Part shown: piece after piece, positions 1-5,283 of the stretch
How positions within the stretch are numbered: the first letter of the stretch is position 1
Layout: each line of letters starts with the position of its first letter
DNA from: Armatimonadota bacterium
GTDB lineage: Bacteria; Armatimonadota; JAAZEB01
DNA: 5,289 nt
Assembly: GCA_012841485.1 (NCBI GenBank)
Contig: DUUU01000206.1
Coordinates: 1 to 5,289 of the forward strand
Reading direction: 5' to 3'
Position numbers and translations under genes: made by a program
The notes under the pieces: model-generated
Database searches by the model: none
What the model was told of the DNA's origin: nothing
The model's input: only the letters and a program-made list of their open reading frames with translations

Positions 1-96
1 CGCTACATCGAGACCTGGTATAACCGGAAGCGGTTGCACTCAGCCCTCGGCTACATGGCGCCGGACGAGTACGAGAGCCTGGTCGGTGCCGTGTAG
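1..96 (+). CDS. IS3-family transposase, C-terminal end (partial)
   Basis: Only the last 31 codons are present; the gene enters from the left edge. The reading frame from base 1 gives RYIETWYNRKRLHSALGYMA followed by PDEYESLVGAV and a TAG stop. The pattern of an aromatic residue, then YN-x-x-R-x-HSALGY and P-x-x-(Y/F)E is the hallmark end of the integrase-type DDE domain of IS3-family OrfB proteins, just after the catalytic glutamate, which would lie upstream. OrfB is normally made as an OrfAB fusion by frameshifting and cuts and joins the element's ends. An inverted-repeat-like end follows the stop by a few bases, so this end of the gene looks intact. Whether the element is complete or active cannot be seen here. 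Confidence 0.9.
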   Translation, partial: RYIETWYNRKRLHSALGYMAPDEYESLVGAV

Positions 97-207: not shown

Positions 208-257
208 CGTCCTTGCCAAGGAGAAGGTCGCGAGTTCGAGTCTCGTCTCCCGCTCCA
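208..257 (+). pseudogene. tRNA-Gly(GCC) 3' half; likely integration scar (att)
   Basis: Canonical tRNA numbering fits from position 27 to 76. The anticodon loop TTGCCAA is at 213-219, with anticodon GCC at 215-217. The variable loop AGGTC is at 225-229. The T-arm is a GCGAG stem (230-234), TTCGAGT loop (235-241) and CTCGT stem (242-246). The 3' acceptor strand CTCCCGC is at 247-253, the discriminator T at 254 and an encoded CCA at 255-257. The 5' half is missing: nothing upstream pairs with the acceptor strand (it would need GCGGGAG), and no D-arm is present. The anticodon stem pairs only at its three loop-proximal positions (210-212 with 220-222); the outer two pairs, G209-G223 and C208-A224, fail. 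Identity to a real tRNA-Gly therefore starts at about 210, inside the anticodon arm, a common crossover site for tyrosine integrases. The gene cannot make a working tRNA. Confidence 0.85.
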
Positions 258-324: not shown

Positions 325-903
325 CTACTCGACGGTCAGGTAGGGGCGCAGCTGCTGCTTCAGGCGTGCTCGCGCGCGGTGGAGACGTGCCTTGACGGCC
401 GCCTCGCTGATCCCCAACGCCTCGCTCACCTCCGCGGTGGAGAGATCCTCCACATCGCGCAGGATGAACACCTTCTTCCAGGAATCCGGGAGGTTGGCAA
501 CCTCGCGATCCATCGCCTCCCGCAGCTCGCGGCTGAGGAGGGTCTGCTCGGGGCTCTCGCCGGGGTCCGGCACCTCGCGAGGCGCAGAAACGCCCCCAGA
601 CTCCGTCATTTCATCGAGAGAGAGCGCGGCAGTGCGCCGGGCTTGCTGCCGCTTGCGCAGGCAGATATTATGCGCGATGCGATAGAGCCACGTGGAAAAC
701 GCGGAGAGACCCTTGAACTGGCCGAGCGCCCGATAGGCCTGCACAAACGTCTCCTGAACCGTGTCCTCGATCTGCTCCGTATCCATGCACCGGCTGTAGA
801 GCTGGCGATGCATGTGATCGCGGTGACGCTTGACGAGCTCATCGAACGCCGCTGTGTCTCCCGCCAAGGCTTTCTGGATCAAGAGCGTATCGGGTGCGTC
901 CAT
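325..903 (-). CDS. ECF (sigma-24/RpoE-type) RNA polymerase sigma factor
   Basis: It encodes 192 residues, the normal size for an ECF sigma factor, which directs core RNA polymerase to a stress- or signal-specific set of promoters. Region 2 spans about residues 12-90 and contains ALAGDTAAFDELV, DTVQETFVQAYRAL (47-60) and FSTWLYRIAHNICL (69-82). A variable acidic/proline-rich linker follows (about 91-125). Region 4 spans about 126-182, with LPDSWKKVFILRDVEDLST and the helix-turn-helix AEVSEALGISEAAVKARLHR, which reads the -35 box. The ATG at 903 is preferred because it sits right before region 2 with AGGAGG 3 bases upstream, a rather tight spacing; the ATG at 933 is the alternative. Longer versions, up to 1137, are ruled out if the TATAAT promoter at 1034-1062 is used. 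No anti-sigma gene is adjacent: the tRNA remnant lies downstream and the divergent gene upstream. Its target promoters are not evident here. Confidence 0.93.
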   Translation of the reverse strand: MDAPDTLLIQKALAGDTAAFDELVKRHRDHMHRQLYSRCMDTEQIEDTVQETFVQAYRALGQFKGLSAFSTWLYRIAHNICLRKRQQARRTAALSLDEMTESGGVSAPREVPDPGESPEQTLLSRELREAMDREVANLPDSWKKVFILRDVEDLSTAEVSEALGISEAAVKARLHRARARLKQQLRPYLTVE

Positions 904-1398: not shown

Positions 1399-2526
1399 AT
1401 GATTATCCACACACTCGCAAACGCTCGGGTAGGATTGATCGGCAACCCATCGGATGGCTACTTCGGCAAGACGATCTCACTGACTATCAAGAACTTCTGG
1501 GCTCAGGTGACCTTGTGGGAGAGCCCAACGGTGCAGATCCTGCCGCACCCAGTGTACGATCCGCTGGAGTTCGACTCCCTGGAGTCGCTGGAGTCGGTCG
1601 CCGTCCGCGACGGCTACTACGGCGGCCAGCGTCTTCTCTTCGCCACATGCAAGCGGTTCGCGGAGTACTGCCGAACGCACGGGATTACCCTCGACCGACG
1701 GGGGTTCACCATCTCGTATGATACGAACATCCCTCGCCAGGTGGGCCTGGCCGGCTCGAGCGCTATCGTCACGGCCGCGGTGAAGGCCCTGATGCGCTTC
1801 TACGACATCGGGGAGAGAGAGATTCCCAAGGCCGTCCTACCCAACCTCATCCTCAGCGTTGAATCGGAGGAGCTGGGCATCGCCGCCGGTCTCCAAGACC
1901 GCGTGATCCAGGTGTATGGCGGCATGGTATACATGGACTTCGCGCGCGATCTGATGGAGGGCCGTGGCTACGGGGAATACGTTCCCCTGGACCCGGAGCT
2001 GTTGCCGGGACGGCTCTTCCTTGCCTATACGGAGAAGCCCAGCGACTCCGGCGTGATCCACAGCGACGTGCGCTTTCGCTTCCGCCAGGGTGATCCCGAG
2101 GTTGTCAGCGCGATGCGGGAGTTCGCACGCCTTGCCGACGAGGCACGCGAGGCCCTCGAGATGCGCGATGCGCGGCGGCTGGGCGAATTGATGAACGCCA
2201 ATTTCGACCTGCGCCGACAAACCTTCGGCGACGCGGCACTCGGCGCCCAGAACCTTGAAATGATCGGCATCGCGCGCGCCCTGGGGGTGCCCAGCAAATT
2301 CCCAGGGTCGGGGGGTGCTGTCATCGGATTGTTTAGCACGGACGAGGAGGGGCGCGCCCTGCACCAGGCCTACACAGAAAGAGGCTATCGTTTTGTGGAG
2401 GCCAAGCCGGCTCCGGCAGATGAGGATTCGCGCTGCCAGCCGGATCCAGAGGAGCGGAGCATGCCCGCCAGAGCGCTTCCCGCGGGCCACCGCGGTCGGA
2501 GCCAGAGACCCCGAGAGGAGAGATAG
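1399..2526 (+). CDS. Glucuronokinase (GHMP kinase superfamily)
   Basis: The predicted cytoplasmic enzyme phosphorylates D-glucuronate at C1 with ATP to give glucuronate-1-phosphate. The protein of 375 residues has the three GHMP motifs: ARVGLIGNPSDGYFGKTIS at 9-27, the ATP-phosphate loop VGLAGSSAIV at 115-124, and the C-terminal glycine motif KFPGSGGAVIG at 300-310. AGLQDRVIQVYGG (163-175) carries the probable catalytic Asp167. NPSD-x-YFG-(K/R)-TIS, YDTNIPRQ, GLQDR-x-x-QVYGG and MN-x-NFDLRR are, from memory, the signature blocks of plant glucuronokinase, and the match is nearly collinear. The ATG at 1399 is chosen because it begins just before the first motif and has GGAG upstream, though 12 bases away. 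A TTG at 1351 in the same frame would add 16 unconserved residues. The last ~38 residues are an Arg/Pro-rich tail beyond the family's usual end. The stop is 6 bases from the next start, which implies an operon. Confidence 0.88.
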   Translation: MIIHTLANARVGLIGNPSDGYFGKTISLTIKNFWAQVTLWESPTVQILPHPVYDPLEFDSLESLESVAVRDGYYGGQRLLFATCKRFAEYCRTHGITLDRRGFTISYDTNIPRQVGLAGSSAIVTAAVKALMRFYDIGEREIPKAVLPNLILSVESEELGIAAGLQDRVIQVYGGMVYMDFARDLMEGRGYGEYVPLDPELLPGRLFLAYTEKPSDSGVIHSDVRFRFRQGDPEVVSAMREFARLADEAREALEMRDARRLGELMNANFDLRRQTFGDAALGAQNLEMIGIARALGVPSKFPGSGGAVIGLFSTDEEGRALHQAYTERGYRFVEAKPAPADEDSRCQPDPEERSMPARALPAGHRGRSQRPREER

Positions 2527-2532
2527 CCGTCC

Positions 2533-3438
2533 ATGTCTGCCAGTCTGCCACGTGTGCGAAAGGTCGTTATCCCGGCGGCGGGTCGTGGAACCCGCTTGCT
2601 TCCGGCCACTAAGTCGCAGCCCAAGGAGATGCTCCCGGTAGCGCGCAAGCCCGTTATCCAGTATGTAGTGGAGGAGATGGTGGATGCCGGTCTCGGTCAG
2701 ATCATGATCGTCTCCGGGCGGACCAAACGCGCGATTGACGACCACTTCGACCCCGATCCCGTGCTGCAGGCGGAGCTCTCGCGCAGGAATGACCGAGAGC
2801 TGATGGCGCAGTTTGCCTTCGAGCACCTCGACGCGCACTACTTCTACGTGCGCCAGAGCGAGCCGCGCGGCCTGGGGCATGCGGTGCTTCTGGCCGAGGA
2901 GTTCGTCGCCGGCGAGCCTTTCGCCGTGGCCCTTGGCGATTCAATCGTATGGAATGGCGGCGGCAAGAGCCTGATGCGCCAGCTCGTGCAGACCCACGTG
3001 GAGACCGGCGCGGCAGCAACGATTGCCGTCGAAGAGGTCACCGCTCAGGACGTGGTCAACTACGGCATCGTCAAGCCGGTGGACGGCGTGGGCCATGCCT
3101 TCCGGATCTCGGACCTGGTCGAGAAGCCCTCGGTCGAGGATGCGCCGAGTCGTCTAGCCATCGCCGGCCGCTACGTCTTCGGCCCGCAGGTCTTCAGCGC
3201 GCTGCGCGACACGGCGCCCGGCCACAGCGGCGAGATCCAGCTTACCGATGCCGTCCGCATCCTGCTCTCGGCCGGCTGTCCCGTCTGGTGCGTGAGGCTG
3301 GAGGGCGGGTGCCGGCGCTATGACATCGGCAACTTCGACAGCTACTTCAAGGCATTCGTGGAGATCAGCCTGCAAGACCCGGAGCTCGGCGAGGGCTTGC
3401 GCGCTCACCTCGCGTCTCTCCTGAAGGAGGAGGCTTAG
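2533..3438 (+). CDS. galU: UTP--sugar-1-phosphate uridylyltransferase, GalU family
   Basis: It joins UTP and a sugar-1-phosphate into a UDP-sugar plus pyrophosphate; the family's standard substrate is glucose-1-phosphate. The 301-residue length is typical of bacterial GalU. The nucleotide-binding start VVIPAAGRGTRLLPATKSQP (11-30) is followed by KEMLPVARKPVIQYVVEEM. Other family landmarks are RGLGHAV (112-118), LGDSI with metal-binding Asp136 (134-138), NYGIVKP (176-182), LVEKPS (195-200), AGRYVF (211-216), GEIQLTDA (233-240) and RYDIGNFDSYFKAFVE (262-277). The ATG at 2533 follows the glucuronokinase stop by 6 bases. A GAGAGGAG purine run lies 12 bases upstream of this ATG, inside the end of the preceding gene, so translational coupling is likely. 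Next to a glucuronokinase, the natural partner substrate is glucuronate-1-phosphate, giving UDP-glucuronate; that specificity is inferred. The gene symbol marks the family and is not a claim that this is the cell's only GalU. Confidence 0.92.
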   Translation: MSASLPRVRKVVIPAAGRGTRLLPATKSQPKEMLPVARKPVIQYVVEEMVDAGLGQIMIVSGRTKRAIDDHFDPDPVLQAELSRRNDRELMAQFAFEHLDAHYFYVRQSEPRGLGHAVLLAEEFVAGEPFAVALGDSIVWNGGGKSLMRQLVQTHVETGAAATIAVEEVTAQDVVNYGIVKPVDGVGHAFRISDLVEKPSVEDAPSRLAIAGRYVFGPQVFSALRDTAPGHSGEIQLTDAVRILLSAGCPVWCVRLEGGCRRYDIGNFDSYFKAFVEISLQDPELGEGLRAHLASLLKEEA

Positions 3439-3690: not shown

Positions 3691-5283
3691 ATGAAGAGGC
3701 ATCGACGTGTTCGAGTCCGTCAGGCGAGCCTGGGAGCGCTGCTTCTCATCCTGGGATGGGCAGGATGGAAGACCGGCCCGGTCCCGGCGGCGGAAGGAGC
3801 GGCACCGGTGGCGGCACCAACGGAAGGCCCGGTCAGTTACGAGGCGTTCGGCGCGGTGGGTGACGGCGTGGCCGATGATCTCCCCGCCATCTGCAAGGCG
3901 CACGAATATGCCAATGCGCACAACCTGCCCGTCCAATCCAAGCCCAACGCGACCTATCACCTCGGCCGCCAGGCGCTCACGGCGGTCATTGCCACCGATA
4001 CGGATTGGAGCACCTCGCGTTTCATCATCGATGACACCGACGTGGAGAACCACCGCAAGGCGCTCTTCGAGGTGCGCTCGCTGCTGGAGCCCGTGGAGTT
4101 GAAGATTGAGCGGCTGCGACGCGACCAGGCGCAGGTGGATCTCCGTCCGGAAACCGATTGCTGGGTGCGGGTGGAGAGCGACGCGAAGAGGGTTTACATC
4201 CGGCGCGGCCTCAACCGCAACAACGGCACGGCGATGCGCGACTGCTTCATCGTGCGCCGGGATGGCACGGTGGAAGGCGCCATCGACTGGGATTACGACA
4301 CGATCACCCGCATCGAGGCCCGCCCGATCGACGAGAAACCGCTCTTGATCAAAGGCGGGGTTTTCACTACCTTCGCCAACCGGATGAAGCAGGAGAAGGG
4401 CTACAACTACTGGTCCCGGAATATCGTCATCACCCGTTCGAACACGGAGGTGGACGGCCTCACCCATTATGTCGTGGGAGAGACGGCCGTGGGGCACCCC
4501 TACTCCGGCTTCCTCAGCATCAGCCGCTGCGCCAACATCACCCTGCGCAACTGCTTCGTCAGCGGGCACAAAACCTACTCCACCATCGGCGCGGCGGGGA
4601 AGCCGGTCAGCATGGGCTCCTATGATCTGTCGGCCAACCAGGTAATCAACCTCCGCCTGATTGGTGTCCGGATGGATCACATCCTCGACACCACTCGCTG
4701 GGGCGTGATCGGCACGAACTACTGCAAGAACATCCTTCTGGAGGATTGCGTGCTCTCGCGGATGGACGCGCACCAGGGGGTCTCCGGCACCTACACGATC
4801 CGACGCTGCGAGCTGGGCTATGCGGGGCTCAACGCCATCGGCCGCGGCACCCTGCTGGTCGAGGACTCCACCCTGTACGGCGGGGCGTTCATCAGCCTCC
4901 GCAGCGATTACGGCAGCACCTGGGAGGGCGACGTGGTCATCCGCAACTGCCGTTGGGTGCCATCCGGCGGGCGAACGTGCTGGCCGCACCTCATCCGCGC
5001 GTCCAACGACGGCACGCACGACTTCGGCTATCCCTGCTTCATGCCCCGGGAGATCCGGATTGACGGGCTGTTCGTGGATGACAGCAACCATCCTGAGGAG
5101 TATGAGGGGATGTACCTCTTCTCCGATCCCGACGGAGCGGCGAAGAGCGACCAGGCGCGCCCCTTCCCCTATAGGCTGACCGAGAAAGTGATCATCCGGG
5201 GGCTCAAGACGGCCAGCGGAAAGAAGCCCCTCCTCTCGCCGGATCCCGAGATGGCGAAGAGCACGACCGTGATCGAGCAGTGA
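3691..5283 (+). CDS. Secreted right-handed parallel beta-helix protein (pectate lyase-like fold)
   Basis: The 530-residue protein begins with a Sec-type signal peptide: a basic stretch KRHRRVRVR (2-10), a hydrophobic core ASLGALLLILGWAGW (12-26) and a cleavage region near PVPAAEGA (30-37). The mature start has EAFGAVGDGVADDLPAICKA (51-70), the FGA-x-GDG-x-x-DD block that opens pectate-lyase-3/GH28-like beta-helices and phage tailspikes. Rung-like repeats follow: ANITLRNCFV (281-290), KNILLEDCVL (346-355), TYTIRRCEL (367-375), TLLVEDSTL (387-395), DVVIRNCRW (414-422), EIRIDGLFV (454-462) and KVIIRGLKT (499-507). Between about 135 and 275 lies a less repetitive part that may be a loop domain or catalytic insertion. 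It would act in the periplasm or outside the cell. Its fold suits a polysaccharide lyase, glycosidase or C5-epimerase, or a non-catalytic carbohydrate-binding protein; I recognise no catalytic set, so no enzyme name is given. It stands 252 bp after the galU-family gene on the same strand. The stop is inside the window. Confidence 0.8.
   Translation: MKRHRRVRVRQASLGALLLILGWAGWKTGPVPAAEGAAPVAAPTEGPVSYEAFGAVGDGVADDLPAICKAHEYANAHNLPVQSKPNATYHLGRQALTAVIATDTDWSTSRFIIDDTDVENHRKALFEVRSLLEPVELKIERLRRDQAQVDLRPETDCWVRVESDAKRVYIRRGLNRNNGTAMRDCFIVRRDGTVEGAIDWDYDTITRIEARPIDEKPLLIKGGVFTTFANRMKQEKGYNYWSRNIVITRSNTEVDGLTHYVVGETAVGHPYSGFLSISRCANITLRNCFVSGHKTYSTIGAAGKPVSMGSYDLSANQVINLRLIGVRMDHILDTTRWGVIGTNYCKNILLEDCVLSRMDAHQGVSGTYTIRRCELGYAGLNAIGRGTLLVEDSTLYGGAFISLRSDYGSTWEGDVVIRNCRWVPSGGRTCWPHLIRASNDGTHDFGYPCFMPREIRIDGLFVDDSNHPEEYEGMYLFSDPDGAAKSDQARPFPYRLTEKVIIRGLKTASGKKPLLSPDPEMAKSTTVIEQ

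Follow-up and report, generated by a model that had tools for sequence, protein, structure and literature searches.

A predicted glucuronokinase gene paired with a GalU-family uridylyltransferase gene in Armatimonadota and other bacteria: a probable unit for glucuronate salvage

Many capsules, slimes and glycosaminoglycans are built from UDP-glucuronate, whose source in bacteria is generally taken to be UDP-glucose, via Ugd. A route that starts from free glucuronate has so far been described in plants and in some animals. In plants the kinase works with UDP-sugar pyrophosphorylase, and inositol oxygenase (MIOX) supplies the glucuronate (PMC3938481, in the parts covered here). The zebrafish kinase, DrGK, uses glucuronate as substrate with a Km of 31 uM and displays no detectable activity on eight other sugars, galacturonate among them; the galacturonate kinase of Arabidopsis is reported to differ greatly from glucuronokinase in its sequence (PMC3938481, same parts). 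The partner domain of the animal protein is almost inactive in vitro, the bacterial and archaeal members of its family consist of the pyrophosphorylase only, and the parts of the paper covered report no bacterial kinase (PMC3938481).

A search of open-licence PMC articles yielded no paper on a bacterial glucuronokinase or on a kinase-GalU gene pair among the titles and abstract openings of the matches listed. Term matches are found in two papers on bacterial communities, glucuronokinase in PMC8571626 and K16190, the orthology number of glucuronokinase, in PMC10687571.

For the GalU family, residues Asp134, Val204, Gly172 and Glu191 of YngB from B. subtilis are proposed to contact glucose, and Glu191-Lys192 to contact glucose and diphosphate (PMC7961091, in the parts covered). 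These residues are used below for comparison.

The DNA analysed here is a stretch of 5289 bases (the window), with the two genes of the pair on the + strand. The first is an open reading frame at positions 1399–2526 that encodes 375 aa and ends with a TAG stop codon at positions 2524–2526. The second begins with an ATG at position 2533 and ends at position 3438 (301 aa). A 6-bp spacer, CCGTCC, lies between the stop codon and the start codon (positions 2527–2532, + strand). A purine-rich sequence, GAGAGGAGAG, at positions 2513–2522 of the + strand falls within the 3′ end of the first gene and may be the ribosome-binding site of the second. The sequence-only reading placed a glucuronokinase gene 6 bp before a GalU-family gene, and the open reading frames, the spacer and the Pfam matches described below confirm a GHMP kinase gene and a GalU-family gene at this distance. 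The upstream neighbour is an ECF sigma factor gene on the opposite strand (positions 325–903); the downstream neighbour (positions 3691–5283) encodes a 530-residue protein with no Pfam match above cut-off.

An Armatimonadetes MAG carries the same two genes on a contig of 61,650 bases (L001), with protein identities of 96.8% and 97.0%, and thus the pair is present in two assemblies. The window and this contig display 96.0% DNA identity across 5094 aligned bases. The genome that contains the contig (termed G001) is of the same species as the window and was used for genome-level searches.

From sequence comparisons, the two genes most likely represent a glucuronate salvage unit. The kinase would phosphorylate free D-glucuronate at C1 with ATP, and the GalU-family enzyme would convert glucuronate-1-phosphate and UTP to UDP-glucuronate and pyrophosphate; the enzyme would thus prefer, or at least accept, glucuronate-1-phosphate. 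The UDP-glucuronate would enter surface or exopolysaccharide synthesis, alongside the ugd route.

The first gene encodes a predicted glucuronokinase of the GHMP family (glucuronate + ATP to glucuronate-1-phosphate), as judged by Pfam, sequence identity, tree, model and fold matches. The aa sequence matches GHMP_kinases_N (PF00288, 46.1 bits) and GHMP_kinases_C (PF08544, 28.6 bits), both above the curated cut-offs. Its best named relatives are glucuronokinases, i.e. those of the barnacle Pollicipes (kinase part, 59–60% identity), Nematostella (56%), Xenopus (55%), zebrafish (54%) and Arabidopsis (51% across 334 residues), with 331–336 residues aligned across the plant and animal comparisons. 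GNPSD and QDR, together with most of the GHMP motif, are invariant across ten aligned sequences from bacteria, archaea, plants and animals. The segment PRQVGLAGSSA (residues 112–122, positions 1732–1764, + strand), which we take to be the GHMP phosphate-binding motif, has invariant residues at P112, G116, G119, S120 and S121. Q166, D167 and R168 of the QDR motif are also invariant, and Asp167 (positions 1897–1899, + strand) is presumably the catalytic base, a role taken from the GHMP family. The AlphaFold model of the protein has a mean pLDDT of 86.1; residues 344–375 are below 50, the last ~32 residues being disordered in the model.

In a 76-row IQ-TREE of kinases (midpoint root, for drawing only), four plant and six animal sequences form one clade (support 100/96). 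This clade is nested in a 25-row set (96/84) that includes the window kinase and 14 further rows from bacteria. Salvage kinases of plants and animals here stand beside bacterial ones, and the location of the eukaryotic kinases within an otherwise bacterial set argues against the earlier description of the locus as a plant-type route in a bacterium.

A different substrate for the kinase, e.g. galacturonate, a heptose or mevalonate, and hence a different product, should be considered. Some relatives are named mevalonate kinase in NCBI sources. A PDB sequence search shows no close relative of the window kinase, the best matches being heptose kinases with weak scores; the best fold matches of the model are GHMP kinases, a heptokinase and galactokinases being the nearest, with 14–20% identity among the best 50 listed. 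Against this, the window kinase is 51–60% identical to the plant and animal glucuronokinases and falls in one set with them; for the remaining GHMP families the comparison is limited to profile and PDB matches, which score weakly. The zebrafish enzyme is inactive on galacturonate and seven other sugars, the Arabidopsis galacturonate kinase is very diverse from glucuronokinase (PMC3938481, in the parts covered), and a ugd-type gene is found near the kinase gene in 9 loci. A different substrate thus appears improbable. There is strong support, by sequence, for the window kinase as a glucuronokinase with that predicted activity, in accordance with the sequence-only reading. The name is not new, as JGI sources already use glucuronokinase for such proteins.

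The product of the second gene (positions 2533–3438, + strand) is a GalU-family uridylyltransferase, proposed to act on glucuronate-1-phosphate and possibly also on glucose-1-phosphate. It matches the Pfam family NTP_transferase (PF00483) with 113 bits and TIGR01099 (GalU) with 292.7 bits. The latter is below the 326.8 cut-off, and the protein is therefore assigned to the GalU family and not to the GalU equivalog; some of the Verrucomicrobiota GalUs linked to a kinase gene are above this cut-off. The best PDB sequence match is YngB. In a tree of GalU sequences, the window protein is in a clade of 28 rows (100/99) that is apart from six canonical rows (99/96).

Of the eleven YngB residues that PMC7961091 names (in the parts covered), six were compared with the window GalU, along with positions 134 and 204. 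Equivalents of YngB Gln105, Gly110, Asp133, Gly172, Glu191 and Lys192 are conserved in the window GalU, and thus among the residues compared the Mg, diphosphate and uridine contacts are retained. Glu197-Lys198 of the window protein (positions 3121–3126, + strand) correspond to YngB Glu191-Lys192. Asp136, the Mg ligand by homology, is followed by Ser137, which replaces YngB Asp134 (positions 2938–2943, + strand).

At the position that follows the Mg Asp, YngB, 5vct, 5j49 and H. pylori GalU have a second Asp; E. coli GalU, 4d48, 6mnu and 6ikx have Val. "Asp or Val" is a description of the solved GalUs that were read and is not an official criterion of the GalU family. The window GalU, with Ser137, has neither. 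GalUs linked to kinase genes and with at least 35% identity to the window GalU number 116 (three RmlA-like upstream neighbours with Asn were excluded), and these have Thr (83), Ser (20), Ala (10), Cys (2) or Asn (1) at this position, while Asp, Glu or Val is found in 0 of the 116. Our guess, from work on RmlA, is that the equivalent of YngB Asp134 touches O6 of glucose and that the signature residue faces C6 of the sugar. The lack of a negative charge beside the sugar would fit glucuronate as substrate, and to this extent the sequences go along with the previous suggestion that the partner is adapted to an acidic sugar phosphate. It should be noted that E. coli GalU and a further three solved GalUs have Val here, so that a non-acidic residue alone is no proof of glucuronate use. 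The GalU tree is compatible with Ser/Thr as either the derived or the ancestral state.

Whether this GalU is a housekeeping UDP-glucose pyrophosphorylase, adjacent to the kinase gene by way of a shared role in polysaccharide synthesis while another enzyme uses glucuronate-1-phosphate, bears directly on the proposed function. G001 has a single full-length GalU, as do most of the linked genomes in a first set of 24 kinase-bearing genomes, and the Gly, Glu and Lys of the glucose site are conserved. In addition, six recombinant UGPases are reported to be specific for Glc1P, and for MeUGP and StUGP the activity with other sugar phosphates, GlcA1P among them, is below 10% (PMC12203929, in the parts covered). 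The signature residue in all 116 linked GalUs speaks against a housekeeping role, as do four kinase-bearing genomes (G003, G014, G018 and G019) in which a canonical GalU with Asp coexists with a window-clade GalU with Ser.

Further evidence comes from 80 Verrucomicrobiota genomes that form one contiguous block (G820–G899); 31 of them have the kinase and 49 lack it. Among the 31 kinase genomes, 24 have a GalU (TIGR01099, E < 1e-80), as against none of the 49 kinase-less genomes (Fisher 1.6e-14, a value that is uncorrected for kinship and overstates independence because of shared ancestry and incomplete genomes). The GalU gene adjoins the kinase gene in 18 of the 24, and in the other six the two co-occur without adjacency; these six GalUs all have Thr at the signature position. 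At E ≤ 1e-40 the numbers are 26/31 and 3/49, and the three matches in kinase-less genomes (L332–L334) are from a divergent family whose signature residue is His. Seven of the 31 kinase genomes have no GalU at E < 1e-80. Among these, a weaker GalU-like gene adjoins the kinase gene in G882 and G897, and a nucleotidyltransferase of the animal type does so in G878.

A nucleotide-sugar dehydrogenase is found in 25 of the 31 kinase genomes of the block and in 47 of the 49 others. Thus GalU tracks the kinase rather than the dehydrogenase in this sample. The presence of the dehydrogenase in 47 of 49 genomes that all lack GalU suggests that there is another source of UDP-glucose there. Outside the block, 0 of 30 further kinase-less genomes (20 Verrucomicrobiota and 10 Planctomycetota) have a GalU at E ≤ 1e-40. 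Kinase-less Armatimonadota have a match in 12 of 20 genomes, and the 14 matches (140–181 bits) are all of the divergent family. In the first set, 20 of 24 kinase genomes have a GalU at E < 1e-60. With this distribution a purely housekeeping GalU seems unlikely, and the genome evidence supports the partner as a glucuronate-1-phosphate uridylyltransferase.

A GalU that makes both UDP-glucose and UDP-glucuronate, and so serves the ugd route as well as salvage, would be a form of the salvage unit and does not exclude it. With a single full-length GalU in G001, the enzyme may need to supply UDP-glucose too; this genome also has a ugd-type nucleotide-sugar dehydrogenase, and the GalU active site is conserved. 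The block data, where GalU follows the kinase and not the dehydrogenase, point the other way, and dual use is considered possible but rather doubtful.

The presence of the ugd-type gene in G001 indicates that salvage would run beside UDP-glucose oxidation and not instead of it. The idea that salvage replaces Ugd was rejected. Six of the 31 kinase genomes of the block have no ugd-type gene, compared with 2 of the 49 others (p = 0.05), and 8 of the 24 first-set genomes are without a match above cut-off, figures that are suggestive at most as genome completeness is uncertain.

The 24 kinase genomes include two with a MIOX gene (PF05153), and none is found in G001, which may be incomplete. MIOX was dropped as the general source of glucuronate, and the glucuronate is probably derived from uronic-acid glycans that are taken up or recycled, rather than from inositol, MIOX being the source that the search covered. 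Of the two genes that had been suggested as a check on this genome, the ugd-type gene is present and MIOX was not found. The infrequency of MIOX, together with an adjacent partner of the GalU family where plants have UDP-sugar pyrophosphorylase, is a second respect in which "plant type" is not supported for the locus.

Searches for the kinase gave matches (E ≤ 1e-40) in 51 of the 291 genomes that represent the window's phylum, in 35 of 392 Planctomycetota, in 126 of 387 Verrucomicrobiota and, at E ≤ 1e-30, in 2 of the 279 from the phylum to which a woesearchaeote belongs; the groups are named after the MAG titles of their centre genomes. A total of 229 loci was compiled: all 55 from Armatimonadota, 30 of the 35 Planctomycetota matches (the five weakest, which lacked a locus, were excluded), all 128 from Verrucomicrobiota, three archaeal and 13 others. 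One unlinked locus was counted twice (L011 and L162), so that 228 are distinct, and one (L024) covers only the last 92 kinase residues. A locus was considered linked when a GalU-like tblastn match (E < 1e-15) shares the strand of the kinase gene and is no more than 700 bp away from it.

By this definition a GalU-like gene adjoins the kinase gene in 117 of the 229 loci: 12/55 in Armatimonadota, 15/30 in Planctomycetota, 83/128 in Verrucomicrobiota, 1/3 in archaea and 6/13 in the others. The remaining 112 show no adjacent GalU; as 204 of the 229 have more than 900 bp on both sides, some links may have been missed. Both gene orders are found among linked loci, and the linked state has changed at least eight times on the 76-row kinase tree. 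The pairing is thus kept in other genomes, and the proposed coupling of the two genes is upheld by adjacency as well as by co-occurrence in the block. A fusion of the kinase with GalU in bacteria was suspected from long open frames and rejected, as none of 228 kinase frames carries both (the GalU looked for being of the window type); in the window the two are separate open reading frames.

Chance adjacency, or an accident of lineage with the two genes functionally unlinked, draws on the kinases most closely related to that of the window, which are not GalU-linked. In a 60-leaf kinase clade (FastTree) that contains the window, plant and animal sequences and 37 loci, linkage is found in the window species only. 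Three Armatimonadota relatives (L078, L082 and L088) have a window-clade GalU 5–6 kb downstream on the same strand, and G002, G004 and G005 have a window-clade GalU at another site in the genome. As an explanation of the pair in general, chance is contradicted by the linked loci in both gene orders and several phyla, by the repeated changes of state and by the six block genomes with co-occurrence but no adjacency, and it is very improbable; for the window species taken alone it could still hold.

Other neighbours of the kinase gene fit UDP-glucuronate as the product. In the 9 loci mentioned above, a ugd-type gene on the strand of the kinase gene lies no more than 2.5 kb from it, and in seven (L137, L139–L143 and L258) the kinase gene is immediately followed by one for a nucleotidyltransferase that resembles the animal fusion domain; none of these loci has an adjacent GalU. 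A NAD-dependent epimerase gene follows the kinase gene in L206, L219 and L221 and is upstream of it in L218. In 96 of the 229 loci neither GalU, a ugd-type gene nor the second type of nucleotidyltransferase is within reach of the probe. Many of the Armatimonadota relatives are in polysaccharide clusters, with a bacterial sugar transferase (14 loci), a GT4 glycosyltransferase (7) or LptF/G (4) within 2.5 kb, and representatives have an exosortase and a DUF3485 protein.

A broader proposal, which we hold with slightly less than even confidence, is that kinase-associated GalUs are dedicated glucuronate-1-phosphate uridylyltransferases, that "GalU" in Verrucomicrobiota is mostly this enzyme, that the residue following the Mg Asp forms part of a specificity switch, and that the plant and animal kinases are offshoots of the bacterial ones. 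In the literature covered, seen in part, a dedicated activity of this kind has not been assigned to the GalU family. If the conserved pair acts as a salvage unit, bacteria of several phyla would have a direct route from recycled glucuronate, and GalU and mevalonate-kinase annotations would be corrected. There would also be a candidate partner for the step that is almost inactive in the zebrafish enzyme (PMC3938481, in the parts covered), and a two-enzyme route to UDP-glucuronate in vitro.

In comparison with known systems, the bacterial gene pair, which recurs in several groups, shares the kinase family and the proposed two-step chemistry with Arabidopsis glucuronokinase and UDP-sugar pyrophosphorylase. 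The plant pathway, however, has a broad UDP-sugar pyrophosphorylase and MIOX, whereas the adjacent partner in the window is of the GalU family (PF00483) and no MIOX is found in G001. Zebrafish DrGKUP, a glucuronokinase fused to a putative uridyl pyrophosphorylase, likewise couples a kinase with a nucleotidyltransferase, but in one protein, in contrast to the separate open reading frames of the window. A relationship of the window GalU to the N-terminal pyrophosphorylase domain of the animal protein was considered and rejected, there being no clear match (best E 0.006, with the barnacle homologue); it is other bacterial nucleotidyltransferases, at the seven loci described above, that are relatives of this domain. 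Canonical GalUs (YngB and the E. coli enzyme) are of the same family and have the Mg Asp, the Glu-Lys pair and two uridine contacts in common with the window GalU. They differ in having Asp or Val after the Mg Asp, where the window protein has Ser, falls in a separate clade and scores below the TIGR01099 cut-off. The Ugd route leads to the same end product by oxidation of UDP-glucose, whereas here free glucuronate would be activated directly.

The kinase-GalU pair in the window is flanked on its 5' side by an ECF sigma factor gene (positions 325-903, minus strand; PF04542 and PF08281), which is divergent from the pair. An open reading frame encoding a 530 amino acid protein (positions 3691-5283) lies within the stretch conserved in L001, a contig from an Armatimonadetes genome that carries the same pair. 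This protein displays only a sub-threshold match to pectate lyase-like sequences. By eye, its start resembles a signal peptide.

Window base 210 is the first that aligns with L001. L001 has an intact tRNA-Gly(gcc) at positions 8780-8854, and the 3' part of this tRNA corresponds to window positions 210-257; ARAGORN detected no tRNA in the whole window. The partial tRNA-Gly(gcc) in the window may represent either an assembly join or an insertion into the tRNA. Window positions 1-96 resemble the terminal part of a transposase, as judged by eye.

The kinase is absent from 49 genomes in a contiguous block of 80 Verrucomicrobiota genomes (G820-G899). A nucleotide-sugar dehydrogenase is present in 47 of these 49, and GalU at E < 1e-80 was found in none of them. 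Separately, 29 Verrucomicrobiota loci (e.g. L238) have a DEAD-box RNA helicase (RhlB-like) close to kinase-GalU and on the same strand.

At the kinase loci L206, L218, L219, L221 and L229, a gene of the UDP-glucose dehydrogenase type is immediately 5' of the kinase, and in L206, L219 and L221 an epimerase is also found 3' of it. Thus salvage and oxidation genes adjoin at these loci.

Other nucleotidyltransferases also accompany the kinase. L103, L105 and L110 display a three-gene cluster in the order RmlA-like nucleotidyltransferase, kinase, GalU. In L137, L139, L140, L141, L142, L143 and L258, the kinase is followed immediately by a nucleotidyltransferase whose relatives include the animal fusion enzyme's N-terminal domain, and this is possibly a relative of the animal fusion partner.
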